Assembly: GCA_028277645.1 (NCBI GenBank)
Contig: JANQFV010000003.1
Location: forward strand, 1-64,000
Length of the DNA stretch: 64,000 nt
Direction of reading: 5' to 3'
Origin: Phycisphaerae bacterium
GTDB taxonomy: Bacteria; Planctomycetota; Phycisphaerae; UBA1845; Fen-1342
Shown: in pieces, positions 3,241 to 53,309 of the stretch
How positions within the stretch are numbered: position 1 is the stretch's first letter
Layout: the number at the start of each line of letters is the position of its first letter
Notes under the pieces: model-generated
What the model saw: the letters and a program-made list of their open reading frames with translations, nothing else
Database searches by the model: none
Told to the model about the DNA's origin: nothing
Translations under genes and position numbers: made by a program

Positions 3241-3623
3241 CCGTTTCGAACGACCGATTGAGCGTCAAGTACTCGATGTGATCGCCATGGGACCGCTATC
3301 CCAGTCAGTCGGCAATCGTCACCGCTTCACGTGAATTGCGCGACGAGTGGCGCGTCACGCGTCCCGGAGCAGCCGCCAGCATTCGTTCTCGGCGGCGTCT
3401 TTCCAGGTACAGAGCAATCGCGGAATTGGGGTCCATCCTTCCCAAGCGCTCTCCGCCGCGGTGCTCAACCCGATAAGCAACGACCGGCTATAAACAGAGC
3501 GAGTACCGCTACGTATCGATGTTACGACTCGGCCCCGTGAATTGCAACGCGAAATGGGTGCCGACTGCTGTAAGTTGTCCCTGCGACGAACTTAAGCACC
3601 CGACGTCGGGCGTAGGCAGGAAA
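3241..3623. other. intergenic stretch
   Basis: No convincing gene. It holds the upstream region of the minus-strand metalloprotease and the 3' flank of the tRNA. A 21-bp stretch at 3389-3409 recurs exactly at 8528-8548, inside the XRE/ImmA gene. Confidence 0.5.
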
Positions 3624-3695
3624 GCGGGTGACCGGGGTCGAACCGGCAACATTCAGCTTGGAAGGCTGATGCTCTGCCAATTGAGCTACACCCGC
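3624..3695 (-). tRNA. tRNA-Gly (UCC anticodon)
   Basis: Read on the minus strand, the 72-nt sequence folds as a cloverleaf. The acceptor GCGGGTG pairs with CACCCGC, the D arm is GCTC...GAGC, and the anticodon arm CAGCCTTCCAAGCTG has TCC in the loop. The T arm contains GGTTCGACC. The 3' CCA is not encoded; TTT follows the acceptor stem. Confident by base pairing and by likeness to other bacterial tRNA-Gly(UCC). Confidence 0.93.
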
Positions 3696-47759: not shown

Positions 47760-47851
47760 GTCATCCCGAACGCAGGGAGGGATCTGCGTGCAATCGAACG
47801 GTTGCTCTCGAACGCCGGTAGATTCCTCCTCGCTGCGCTCGTCGGAATGAC
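47760..47851. repeat. dispersed palindrome, copy 5
   Basis: GTCATCCCGAACGCAGGGAG at the left; GTAGATTCCTCCTCGCTGCG then CTCGTCGGAATGAC at the right. The centre has AATCGAACGGTTGCTCTCGA, shared with copies 4 and 6. It separates convergent genes. Confidence 0.88.
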
Positions 47852-50050: not shown

Positions 50051-51790
50051 CTACGCCGCCTGGTGCTGGACCTCCTCCGTTGAGTCGAGCTCAAAGCCGT
50101 CGGGCGCGACGTGGACACCGGCCAGCGCGCGGCCGGAGATGTCACCGCCACTCTGCTCCCAACTCGGATCCCACACGAGCGCCTCGGGTGTCGAGCACGC
50201 CACGGAGCGACCGTGGCCAACAGTCCAGATCGGCGAGCGGCCGGCCTCTTTGCCATCGACGAACGCCTCTTCGAACAGCTCGCGCATCCAGTACAGCTCG
50301 TGCGACTGCGGCGTGTCTTCCGGGTAGCGCGTCGCACGACCCTCCCATGCGACGGGCGACAGTCGGGCCGCGGTGAACTCGCGCAGCCGATCGACCCAGT
50401 CGTAACCGCAGCCATCCGAGAACTGCTCCTTTTGCCGCCAGAGGATGTCGTCGGGCAACCACGGATCGGACGGATCGTCGAACGCCTTGCGCAGGATGTA
50501 CTTCTCCATGCGCGGGTGGCGGCCATCGGGGCGGGTCTTGATGTCGATCAGCTTCTCGCGCGGGTCGATCGACATCGCGAGATCCATGAAGTCTCGATCG
50601 AGGAACGGCACGCGCACTTCCAGCCCCCAGGCCATCGGCGCTTTATTCGCCCGCATGACATCGAACTGGTGCAAACGGGTGACCTTGCGCATCGCCTCCC
50701 AGTGGAATTCCTCGGCACTTGGTGCGCGGTGGAAGTAGAGATAGCCGCCGAAGATTTCGTCGGCGCCCTCGCCCGATAAGACCATCTTGATGCCGAGCTG
50801 CTTGACGCGCTGGGCCAGCAGGTAGGTCGGCACGGCCGTGCGAACCTGCTGGTAGCTCTCCAGGTGCCGCACCACCGGCGGAACGGCCGCCAGGGCCTCG
50901 TCGAGCGTGAACGTGAATTCGTGATGGTTGGTGCCGAGGAACTCGGCCATCCGCCGGGCCGGCGCTAGATCGGGTGCGCCTTCCAGTCCGATCGCGAACG
51001 TGTGGAAGCGCTCGCTGAAGCGCTTCATGCTGCCGACGCGATCGCCGTAGTGGACCGCGATCGACGCAATGATCGATGAATCGAGCCCGCCGCTGAGCAG
51101 CAATCCGCACGGGACGTCGGTCATCAGGCGTTCCAGGACGGCGTCGATCAGCGTGTCACGCAGTTTCTCCAGGTCCAACGGCGTGTCCGGCACCGTGTGC
51201 TGCCACTCCGGCTCGTACCACGCGAACCGTCGAATGCCCTGCCCATCGCAGATCCACGCATGCCCGGGCGGCACAAGCTCGACGTACAGACAGTCGTCGA
51301 CCAGGGCTTTCATCTCGGACGCGAACCACACCGTGCCGTCGGCGTGGCGGCCGATGTACAGCGGACAGATACCGGCCTGGTCACGGGCAGCGATCCAATG
51401 ACCACGACGTTCGTCTACCACGAAGAACGCGAATTGCCCATCCAACAGGGACGGCGTCTGCTCGCGGTGCTCAGCCCAGAGCGGGCCGATCACCGCACAG
51501 TCAGAACGAGATAGCCCGCGCGTATCCAACCGTCGCCTCAACGCCGCGTAGTTATAAACCTCGGCGTTGGCGACCCAGGCGATCTGTCCGCGGCGGAAAG
51601 GCTGGGCGCCGTGATCGGGATCAATGATCGCGAGGCGACGATGACCCAGCCAAGCGTTGCGCAGCGTCAGCGTACCGCGGTCGTCTGGCCCGCGATGGAC
51701 GAGTCGATCGAGCAGTTCATCGCCGCGGCGGGCGTGCCGGGCGGCGGTTGACGTTTCCGGGCCGTCGACGATCGTCAAGAATCCACACAT
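50051..51790 (-). CDS. asnB: asparagine synthase (glutamine-hydrolysing)
   Basis: 579 residues from ATG 51790, chosen because Cys2 (MCGFLTIV) must become the N-terminal glutaminase nucleophile; AGGA lies about 8 nt upstream. Glutaminase domain about 1-200 (LVHRGPDDRGTLTL, GHRRLAIID). Synthetase domain from about 215: PP-loop LLLSGGLDSSIIASIAVHYG, ERFHTFAIGLEGAPDLAPAR, and VLSGEGADEIFGGY near 340. The C-terminal extension is somewhat long (ends EEVQHQAA). It makes Asn from Asp, Gln and ATP. The frame stays open upstream, but that region contains the attenuator, not protein. Confidence 0.95.
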   Translation of the reverse strand: MCGFLTIVDGPETSTAARHARRGDELLDRLVHRGPDDRGTLTLRNAWLGHRRLAIIDPDHGAQPFRRGQIAWVANAEVYNYAALRRRLDTRGLSRSDCAVIGPLWAEHREQTPSLLDGQFAFFVVDERRGHWIAARDQAGICPLYIGRHADGTVWFASEMKALVDDCLYVELVPPGHAWICDGQGIRRFAWYEPEWQHTVPDTPLDLEKLRDTLIDAVLERLMTDVPCGLLLSGGLDSSIIASIAVHYGDRVGSMKRFSERFHTFAIGLEGAPDLAPARRMAEFLGTNHHEFTFTLDEALAAVPPVVRHLESYQQVRTAVPTYLLAQRVKQLGIKMVLSGEGADEIFGGYLYFHRAPSAEEFHWEAMRKVTRLHQFDVMRANKAPMAWGLEVRVPFLDRDFMDLAMSIDPREKLIDIKTRPDGRHPRMEKYILRKAFDDPSDPWLPDDILWRQKEQFSDGCGYDWVDRLREFTAARLSPVAWEGRATRYPEDTPQSHELYWMRELFEEAFVDGKEAGRSPIWTVGHGRSVACSTPEALVWDPSWEQSGGDISGRALAGVHVAPDGFELDSTEEVQHQAA

Positions 51791-51830
51791 GGTGTCGTCC
51801 TTTCGGAGCCCGGCCCGCCGAAGGACTGCC

Positions 51831-51867
51831 AAAAAAGAAGCAGCCCCATCCGGCGGACGGGGCTGCT
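51831..51867 (-). terminator. attenuator terminator in the asnB leader
   Basis: On the minus strand AGCAGCCCC (51867-51859) pairs with GGGGCTGCT (51847-51839) around an 11-nt loop, followed by TCTTTTTT (51838-51831). It lies 40 nt before the asnB start and after the Asn-rich leader ORF. The arm CCCCGTCCGC (51862-51853) can instead pair with GCGGTGCGGGG (51922-51912), which would stop the terminator forming. Confidence 0.9.
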
Positions 51868-51894
51868 GGTGATTCTCGCTTAGATTCGTCGGCT

Positions 51895-51978
51895 CTAAGG
51901 CAACACCAAGACCCCGCACCGCGTAACGCGGTTATTCGGGTTGGGATTAGCGTTGCTCTGGAGCCGTGTCTGACACAT
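51895..51978 (-). CDS. asnB leader peptide (27 residues, Asn-rich)
   Basis: ATG 51978 to TAG 51895 encodes a peptide beginning MCQTRLQ and containing SNANPNPNN at residues 8-16: five Asn codons in eight positions (51954-51931). The codon after the last Asn begins the stem CCGCG-TTA-CGCGG (51931-51919). Its right arm extends into GCGGTGCGGGG, the antiterminator strand. Ribosomes stalled for charged tRNA-Asn would cover the left arm, freeing the antiterminator. Smooth translation to the TAG would allow the terminator. The putative promoter places transcription start within a few bases of the ATG, so the leader may be translated from a leaderless mRNA. No Shine-Dalgarno site is evident. Confidence 0.8.
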   Translation of the reverse strand: MCQTRLQSNANPNPNNRVTRCGVLVLP

Positions 51979-51987
51979 ATCAGCAAT

Positions 51988-52017
51988 ATCGTAGGGAAAC
52001 GGGGTGGGCATAATCAA
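51988..52017 (-). promoter_or_regulatory. putative asnB leader promoter
   Basis: TTGATT (52017-52012) and TACGAT (51993-51988) on the minus strand, spacer 18 bp, ending 9 nt before the leader ATG. Confidence 0.55.
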
Positions 52018-52085: not shown

Positions 52086-52177
52086 GTCATCCCGACGACC
52101 AGCGGGAGGAGAGATCTTCGTCGATCCGAGAGCAACCGCTCAATGGCAACTAGATCCCTCACTGCGTTCGGGATGAC
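52086..52177. repeat. dispersed palindrome, copy 6
   Basis: GTCATCCCGACGACCAGCGG at the left; TAGATCCCTCACTGCGTTCG then GGATGAC at the right. Most diverged in the left arm. The centre GAGCAACCGCTCAATGG is the reverse complement of the copy 5 centre. It lies 12 nt after the prfB stop. Confidence 0.8.
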
Positions 52178-52189
52178 TGCCACAGAGGC

Positions 52190-53309
52190 CTAATGCCCGC
52201 GTTTCAGGCGCTGGCGGAGTCTGGCGTCGATGTAGGGTTGCAGCTCGCCGTTGAGGACGCGTTGCACGTCACCGACAGCGTAGTTCGTACGGTGGTCCTT
52301 CACGTGAATCGTTGAGCCGTGCAGGACGTAGCTGCGGATCTGGTTGCCCCAGGCGATTTCGCCCTTCTCGCTGTAGATCTTCGCCAACTCCTCGTCCTGC
52401 TTGGCCTGCTCCATCTGTTCGAGCTTGGATTGCAGCATGGAGAGCGCGACACGCTTGTTCTGCGCCTGGCTGCGCTCGTTGACGCACTCGACCATCACGC
52501 CCGTCGGCTTGTGACGGATGCGCACCGCGGTCGCGACCTTGTTCACGTTCTGTCCGCCGGCACCGGATGCGCGGCGGAAGAACTCGATGTCGAGCTCGCC
52601 CTCGGCGATCTCGATCTTGGCGTCTTCGAACTCGGGCAGGCAGTCGACACCGACGAACGAGGTCTGGCGTTTACCCTGGGCGTTATACGGACTGATGCGC
52701 ACGAGGCGATGTACGCCGGTCTCGCAGGACAGATAACCATACGCGTACGGACCGGCGACGCGCAGCGTCACCGACTGGATCCCTGCTTCGTCGCCATCAC
52801 GTCGATCGATCTCGGTCGCTTTAAACCCGGCGCTTTCGAAGTACATGATGTACATGCGCAGGAGCATCTCGGCGAAGTCGCAGGAGTCCACTCCGCCGGC
52901 CCCTGCCTGGATGCTGAAGAAGCAGTCGCGCTGGTCGTTCTCACCCGAGAGCAGCGTCAGCAGCTCGACCTGGTCAGTCTTGCCGGATAGCGCCTTGAGC
53001 TCGCTCTGCACTTCGCTCTGCGACTCGGCGTCTTCCTGCTCGGTGGCGAGTTCCAGCAGCACCGCGACGTCCTCGACACCCTGGAGCAAACTCTGCACAG
53101 GGTCGACCAACGCGCGCAGCGCCTTCATCTCAGCGACGGTCCGCTGGGCACTTTCCTGATTGTCCCAGAAATCAGGTCGCTCCATCTCCGCCGAGAGTTT
53201 GGCGACCCGTGTCGTCTTGGCCGGCAGGTCAAAGAGAGTCCCGGATCGCGTGGATCCGGGCCGTCAGCTCGCGCAAGGTCGCGGCGGGATCTTCGTAGGT
53301 AACAGTCAT
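52190..53309 (-). CDS. prfB: peptide chain release factor 2, with programmed +1 frameshift
   Basis: The reading frame starts at ATG 53309 (GGAAGGG upstream): MTVTYEDPAATLRELTARIH and so on for 26 codons, ending CTT TGA C (53234-53228). This is the conserved RF2 recoding site: at the in-frame UGA the ribosome slips +1 and continues LPAKTTRVAKLSAEMERPDF through to 52190. A weak SD-like GGGA precedes the site instead of the usual AGGGGG. The product is about 367 residues. GGQ lies in RRASGAGGQNVNKVATAV; other RF2 features are ETGVHRLVRISPYNAQGKRQ, TSFVGVDCLPEF, and YVLHGSTIHVKDHRTNYAVG. RF2 reads UGA/UAA and autoregulates through this UGA. Confidence 0.95.

Follow-up and report, generated by a model that had tools for sequence, protein, structure and literature searches.

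The minus strand of the window (the whole stretch of 64,000 nucleotides analysed here, from a Phycisphaerae bacterium) presents in order, from 52017 to 50051, promoter-like boxes, a 27-codon open reading frame (ORF), a terminator hairpin, a U tract and asnB (Table 1), and this raises the question of whether the short ORF and the hairpin regulate asnB, and by what signal. An NCBIfam profile search identifies the product of asnB as asparagine synthase B (NF006949; score 573.1 bits, cut-off 499). The original prediction, made from the letters of the DNA, had described a 27-codon ORF with five Asn codons in eight positions, and a direct reading bears this out (codons 9, 11, 13, 15 and 16). It was likewise right in placing asnB 40 nt 3' of the U tract, and in describing a CCGCG/CGCGG stem, which exists as CCGCG-TTA-CGCGG and follows the last Asn codon directly. 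The terminator stem and its U tract are present too, but the length of 9 bp given for the stem has to be corrected to 13 pairs including one G-U (51867-51839, 27 nt past the leader stop). Similarly, a strand able to pair with the left arm of the terminator does exist, but its extent had been drawn too short: on folding, the pairing comprises GG(U)GCGGGGU/GCCCCGUCC plus UUGGUG/CACCAG. The leader RNA as a whole (51828-51990) folds with -73.3 kcal/mol (z = -5.55 against chance).

Table 1. Parts of the asnB leader locus in the window.
Feature	Position	Strand	Basis
-35-like box TTGATT	52012..52017	-	direct reading; TTG-starting hexamer 16-18 nt 5' of TAnnnT in 9/12 clade members
-10-like box TACGAT, 9 nt 5' of leader AUG	51988..51993	-	TAnnnT 6-10 nt before leader ATG in 9/12
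Leader peptide ORF MCQTRLQSNANPNPNNRVTRCGVLVLP, including stop (ATG 51978, TAG 51897-51895)	51895..51978	-	direct reading; leader with 3-6 Asn in 12/12 clade members
Control codons 9-16, AAC GCT AAT CCC AAC CCG AAT AAC, 5 Asn	51931..51954	-	reading and stall folding
Region 2, 5' arm of antiterminator, GGTGCGGGGTCTTGGTG	51904..51920	-	folding of stall-freed RNA
Region 3, common to antiterminator and terminator, CACCAGCAGCCCCGTCC	51855..51871	-	folding and core comparison
Region 4, 3' arm of terminator, GGATGGGGCTGCT	51839..51851	-	13-pair hairpin with region 3
U tract TCTTTTTT	51831..51838	-	direct reading and terminator scan
Shine-Dalgarno-like AAAGGA of asnB	51798..51803	-	direct reading; SD-like motif at most 18 nt before asnB in 11/12
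asnB, glutamine-hydrolysing asparagine synthetase, 579 aa, including stop (start 51790)	50051..51790	-	NF006949 and TIGR01536 above cut-offs

This arrangement resembles that of the his, trp, leu, thr, ilv and pheA attenuators, where the leader ORF likewise carries codons for the amino acid being made, the biosynthetic gene lies directly downstream, and an antiterminator and an intrinsic terminator exclude each other; here, the codons are those of Asn and the target is asnB. We consider it very probable, on comparative sequence evidence, that asnB is controlled by charged tRNA-Asn through a ribosome-mediated transcription attenuator at this locus, as the original prediction had proposed. In the Firmicutes, asparagine genes are under the control of T-box elements, which also sense tRNA-Asn charging and control transcription, but do so by binding the tRNA directly and without a leader ORF. 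A T-box or another Rfam riboswitch was looked for at the leader and rejected, the only match in the window at gathering score being a tRNA at 3623-3695. The Rfam amino-acid leader families gave no match at gathering score in 12 leader-bearing loci or at the window leader, and the only match at the leader at E up to 1, to SgrS (17.8 bits against a cut-off of 37), was dismissed as lying below the cut-off.

Attenuators in Rfam have His, Leu, Thr and Trp specificities, with Ile/Val and Phe known besides (PMC3766115), to which Ala and Met leaders (PMC8079986) and the Cys leaders of Actinobacteria (PMC1262725) have been added. Asn is not named among the leader specificities in the consulted parts of these three papers; a word search for asparagine found nothing within PMC2965389, PMC1262725, PMC1183508 and PMC7366714, and the asparagine passages seen in PMC5009743, PMC12421871, PMC5864092 and PMC11282234 concern other matters. 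A search of the full-text literature, outside of which most subscription journals lie, brought up no description of an asparagine leader attenuator in the titles and abstract openings among the matches listed. Within these sources, an attenuator of this amino-acid specificity is not found in print.

The original prediction had staked itself beforehand on relatives carrying an Asn-rich ORF and alternating stems upstream of asnB. Searches with the window's AsnB at E 1e-60 in its family (1 of 27 genomes positive), at 1e-90 in its order (1 of 114) and in a sample of the phylum (6 of 392), and at 1e-100 in the class of G158 (2 of 14) yielded only the window's own genome, the clade member G158 and four distant AsnB; further clade members came from a class sample (2 of 397 at 1e-110) and from the order and the family of G980 (9 of 301 at 1e-110 and 10 of 163 at 1e-150). 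We define the clade as the twelve genomes, the window's own included, whose AsnB is at least 55% identical to that of the window (L001, the window, together with L012, L190-L196 and L251-L253). All twelve carry a leader of 24-32 codons with 3-6 Asn, followed by a hairpin before asnB (for example MTSRLNNNPNPNANPPRGGASWSG, MTRYCVNTNTINNANRIGGVSGTR, MNPVSPTNANTNTTTNRICEVARSR and MFYQPVSNPNRNTNPPLGGVSRSA). In 11 of the 12 the hairpin has a T-rich tail, as would be expected of an intrinsic terminator between leader and gene; the exception is L012, at once the weakest positive and the most distant member, with 3 Asn and a hairpin without a U tract (TCTGCCGC), and the tails are interrupted in several other members. 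The loci L251-L253 were fetched once the pattern was known, as a test, and all three fit, L251 and L253 being close to earlier rows. None of the six planctomycete AsnB at 47-50% identity (L007-L010, L197, L198) has an Asn leader; for three of them, where the match begins within the gene, the upstream part was judged from the printed sequence. The patchiness of the clade (a single one of the 114 genomes in the window's order) suggests horizontal transfer of asnB along with its leader. A 30-base search with the exact leader DNA found no match in the genome contigs.

The window's genome also encodes AsnRS (asnS, on contig 19, above cut-off), so that charged tRNA-Asn can report free asparagine. 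Upstream of asnS, an ORF with 3 Asn in 9 was not found in five genomes.

Chance accounts poorly for these leaders. When the 400 nt upstream of the window's asnB were shuffled (n = 300), an ORF with 3 Asn in 9 arose once, and neither 4 in 9 nor 3 in 9 together with a terminator arose at all; over nine planctomycete upstream regions with 300 shuffles each, at least 4 Asn in 9 appeared in 0-2 shuffles, as did 3 in 9 plus a terminator. In nine leaders read in frame, Asn makes up 43 of the 230 residues (the other two frames give 1 and 0 of 239), and in all twelve 56 of 305, compared with 3.1% in the window's ORFs of more than 350 aa. As a control, the same scan was applied ahead of the window's 103 mechanical ORFs that are 150 aa or longer: 15 of them are preceded by a small ORF and a terminator-like hairpin, and none by an Asn-rich one with a terminator; this control contains many shadow ORFs, leaves out those less than 400 nt from an edge and is blind to the asnB leader itself, the mechanical asnB ORF starting at GTG 51919, inside the leader. 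These numbers bear on the possibility that the hairpin merely insulates asnB from transcription coming from upstream, with the Asn-rich ORF being fortuitous. A same-strand gene does lie upstream (52190-53185; from reading its sequence we take it to be release factor 2), and the terminator scan finds nothing else resembling a terminator in the stretch from there to asnB. Nevertheless, the recurrence of the Asn-rich ORF in every one of the twelve homologues, the scarcity of 4 Asn in 9 among the shuffles of the window region and of all nine regions, and the fact that such a terminator would also sever asnB from the promoter-like pair before the leader make pure insulation extremely improbable, and an insulation-only terminator was rejected.

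If the attenuator reading is right, transcription would start beside the leader AUG, as the position of the promoter-like boxes implies, and a ribosome would trail the RNA polymerase through the 27-codon leader. With ample Asn-tRNA, the ribosome would clear the Asn codons and cover or disrupt region 2; regions 3 and 4 would then form the terminator, and transcription would end before asnB. With Asn-tRNA scarce, a stall on the Asn codons would leave region 2 free to capture region 3 before region 4 exists, whereupon the terminator could not form and asnB would be transcribed. Without any ribosome, the leader would fold on itself and the terminator would form, as is also computed for L001. The original prediction had suggested folding the two alternative structures as a check, and both are found in the window leader: with a stall on the last Asn, the RNA freed up to the terminator loop folds with -28.4 kcal/mol, region 2 holding region 3, whereas the identical stretch reaches only -2.2 kcal/mol once the ribosome is at the stop codon; the terminator itself has -25.6 kcal/mol.

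To follow this codon by codon, we cut the RNA before region 4, shifted the stall along the leader and recorded as capture the share of the left-arm bases of the terminator that pair upstream. In L001, capture is 0.69-0.82 with the A site on Asn codons and 0.14 three codons beyond the last Asn. Across the clade it averages 0.72 at Asn stalls as against 0.36 once the stall is at least two codons beyond the last Asn; it is higher at Asn in all twelve leaders, a trend partly inherent in the method, since the earlier the stall, the more RNA is free. In 9 of the 12, capture drops below half of its Asn value no more than three codons past the last Asn (for instance, from 0.89 to 0.06 over four codons in L195 and from 0.75 to 0.02 in L196); in L190, L192 and L252 the drop comes later, after 4, 7 and 8 codons. 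Further downstream, capture partly recovers in 11 of 12 rows, to 0.38-0.83. Stalling at the last Asn but one frees an RNA whose fold, relative to a dinucleotide-shuffled middle, has a mean z of -2.70 and lies below -2.3 in 9 of 12 leaders; a stall on Asn15 of L001 gives -2.98. By computation, then, the antiterminator would exclude the terminator upon a stall at the control codons, weakly so in L012, L192 and L253, whose z ranges from -1.06 to -1.29. When the full RNA is considered at equilibrium, the terminator has a probability of at least 0.95 at every stall position in L001 and of at least 0.86 in 7 of the 12 leaders, L001 included, while falling to 0.50 or less at some stall only in L190, L191, L195, L251 and L252. 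The terminator hence wins at equilibrium in most leaders, and the switch must be largely kinetic. Kinetic switching is also what is assumed for known attenuators.

The alternating stems expected in relatives are conserved, and they covary. The core of regions 2, 3 and 4 reads GAGGC/GCCTC/GAGGC in L193, L196 and L253 and GGGG/CCCC/GGGG in L190 and L195, the three regions shifting together: one core column, the same in either helix, shows a two-sided change from G-C to A-U. As the GAGGC carriers all belong to the genus g485, this may be a single event. In eight rows with hand-chosen 8-nt cores (L012 was left out and L251-L253 had not yet been fetched), standard pairs number 62 of 63 for 2:3 and 64 of 64 for 3:4, as against 43-56% and 33-60%, respectively, in slid registers. 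Permutation of arms among the planctomycete leaders separates the helices: for 3:4, the own arms pair better than in all 20000 permutations, whereas 2:3 shows no such preference for the own arm in this GC-rich set (1867 of 20000 permutations as good). Conservation with compensatory change is seen in both alternative helices on the hand-picked cores; the planctomycete 2:3 permutation, taken by itself, does not show it. Compared with a shuffled region 2, the energy of the 2:3 duplex does not stand out in L001 (z -0.87), L012 (1.16), L031 (-0.07) or L039 (0.22); in L036 and L042 it does (-4.08 and -2.45), and some of these loci come from the other lineages considered below.

The promoter-like boxes of the original prediction can be read directly as TTGATT-18-TACGAT, but with 8 of 12 consensus matches by hand count they stay below the 9/12 threshold of the promoter scan, which called no promoter at the locus. 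Comparison of the clade adds to this. A TAnnnT lies 6-10 nt before the leader AUG in 9 of the 12 leaders, whereas such a box occurs at 1.5% of all positions across these regions, and each of the nine has a TTG-starting hexamer 16-18 nt further upstream; the pair was not found before the leaders of L012, L191 and L251. No SD-like motif (GGAG, GAGG or AGGA) occurs within 15 nt before the leader AUG in any of the 12, while one occurs within 18 nt before asnB in 11. From the position of the boxes and the missing leader SD we predict a nearly leaderless mRNA, going beyond the original prediction: transcription would probably start within a few nt of the AUG, in the window about 2-3 nt before it, and the promoter position favours the start at 51978 over an upstream in-frame ATG. 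Leaderless leaders have precedents in trpL of Sinorhizobium meliloti (PMC7298713) and in leuL, trpL2, ilvL, metL and thrL of Streptomyces lividans (PMC8079986), where the leader ORF is at or adjoining the transcript start; those belong to other phyla and other amino acids, and in the planctomycetes leaderlessness is predicted from promoter position.

The SD-like motif of asnB opens another reading, namely that the leader ribosome alters access to this motif and acts on translation of asnB instead of on its transcription. It would suit L012, with its missing U tract and with GGCAGG/CCTGCC just before the asnB start, and L001, where, by reading, pairing of TCCTTCGG with CCGAAAGGA might span the SD. 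However, a T-rich tail, as the scan defines it, lies behind the hairpin in 11 of the 12 clade members, which speaks for termination and renders purely translational control very unlikely; the T-rich tails of the 26 flavobacterial and 5 rhodothermotan positives described below are uninformative here since the scan requires them. Seen by themselves, the paired segments of L001 (51825-51798, minus strand) could form a hairpin constituting a second control layer, and those of L012, lying 1-21 nt before asnB, could likewise form one; this leader, without a U tract, may act on translation.

Beyond the original prediction, Asn leaders are not limited to planctomycetes. In the Flavobacteriaceae, 177 of 249 genomes match the AsnB of L031 at E 1e-200, and from these we took 90 upstream regions (the best 30 matches and 60 more). 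An Asn-rich leader with a terminator was found in 26 of the 90, with 24 of these among the best 30 and L114 as the weakest (3 Asn in 9); in 4 of the 64 remaining regions an ORF reaches 4 Asn in 9 without a terminator, all of these being raw counts from AT-rich regions. Together with the separately found L042 there are 27 flavobacterial leaders, with Asn at 190 of 397 residues (for instance MVRFNLNNNNNNNGNP and MLLNNNNNNNNRMP). In this set, which includes some nearly identical members, regions 2 and 3 pair specifically with their own partner (1 of 5000 permutations does as well), and so do regions 3 and 4 (0 of 5000). In the Rhodothermota, 22 of the 114 genomes in the order of L039's genome (Rubrivirga) match, which gives 21 loci with one partial gene left out. 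A leader with a terminator occurs in 5 of the 21, which are the five nearest (78-100% identical to L039), and is absent from the other 16, one of which has only 220 nt upstream; the five leaders start with TTG, GTG or ATG and have 3-5 Asn in 9. On these five rows the permutation test is negative for 2:3 (4482 of 5000 as good) and marginal for 3:4 (246 of 5000). For both groups, the underlying scan demands a T-rich tail.

The breadth of the leader set bears on a further alternative, nascent-peptide arrest, in which the peptide in the exit tunnel would sense asparagine or another metabolite and slow decoding of Asn would play no part. The leaders of the window and of L012 are both 27 codons long and end alike (GVLVLP and AVMVLD), as such a mechanism might have it. 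Arrest peptides usually retain a fixed motif, though, and the non-Asn residues vary widely among the clade leaders (compare MTSRLNNNPNPNANPPRGGASWSG and MSQFSTNPITNCLCNVNLVTNGMDEAFGLRWA), while dissimilar poly-Asn leaders precede asnB in the Flavobacteriaceae; we regard arrest as highly unlikely.

In the Alteromonadaceae, where the Asn-rich ORF of Glaciecola (L052) had been promising at first, 30 loci (of 70 matching genomes) yielded no convincing Asn leader. The candidates L221-L224 and L241 (3-4 Asn in 9 plus a terminator) were rejected, their ORFs overlapping the end of the upstream gene out of frame; this gene end is conserved as SEFQRK or SEFQRR, and the terminator lies more than 180 nt from asnB in these five loci. 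ATG-initiated ORFs with 4-5 Asn in 9 and without a following terminator are present in L221, L232, L233 and L248. The conserved SEFQRK gene end read in another frame mimics an Asn leader and is a trap for leader-peptide screens.

How the leaders came to be distributed in this way was approached with a quick AsnB tree of 62 hand-chosen proteins out of 123 (without L251-L253, and with L001 and L012 flagged as long). The nine planctomycete leader rows fall on one side of a branch with an SH-aLRT of 100, and the Asn-leader label requires 4 changes, at least 3 of them forced by starred branches, as against a mean of 16.5 when shuffled (0 of 500 as low). These patterns suggest that Asn leaders probably had separate origins in the different lineages, though there may instead have been one old origin followed by several losses. 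We moderately favour the fuller reading that Asn-leader attenuation of asnB was invented repeatedly (in Planctomycetota, Flavobacteriaceae and Rhodothermota) and that in Planctomycetota it has moved with asnB as a cassette of about 200 bp plus the gene. Our confidence in both this and the attenuator reading is slightly lowered by the three late-releasing leaders and by an equilibrium switch in only 5 of 12. Were the cassette reading true, the leaderless promoter-leader-terminator-asnB unit would give an acquired asnB its own tRNA-Asn sensor with no need of a host regulator. If the attenuator reading holds, asparagine would join the amino acids read by leader peptides, through one solution that was probably reached more than once. 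To our knowledge there is little work on ribosome-mediated attenuation in these phyla. Whether transcription and translation are coupled in planctomycetes is a question raised for these cells; attenuation at this locus would mean that they are coupled tightly enough for it, the leader offering a direct test, and the leader could moreover serve as a built-in reporter for tRNA-Asn charging.

Two minor observations concern the window and its genome. The genome has two more asparagine-synthase-like reading frames of about 700 aa (C9:45289-46344 and C15:6842-7942; L002-L005), with 33-41% identity in pieces, which, as a guess, are perhaps exosortase-type amidotransferases. In the window, a 26-base repeat, GTCATCCCGAACGCAGTGAGGGATCT, occurs at 52152-52177 (minus strand) and 47760-47785 (plus strand) with one mismatch between the copies and 0 expected by chance; the copy at 52152-52177 sits in the gap separating the upstream gene from the asnB leader, and the 26-base sequence is perhaps a piece of a dispersed palindromic repeat.
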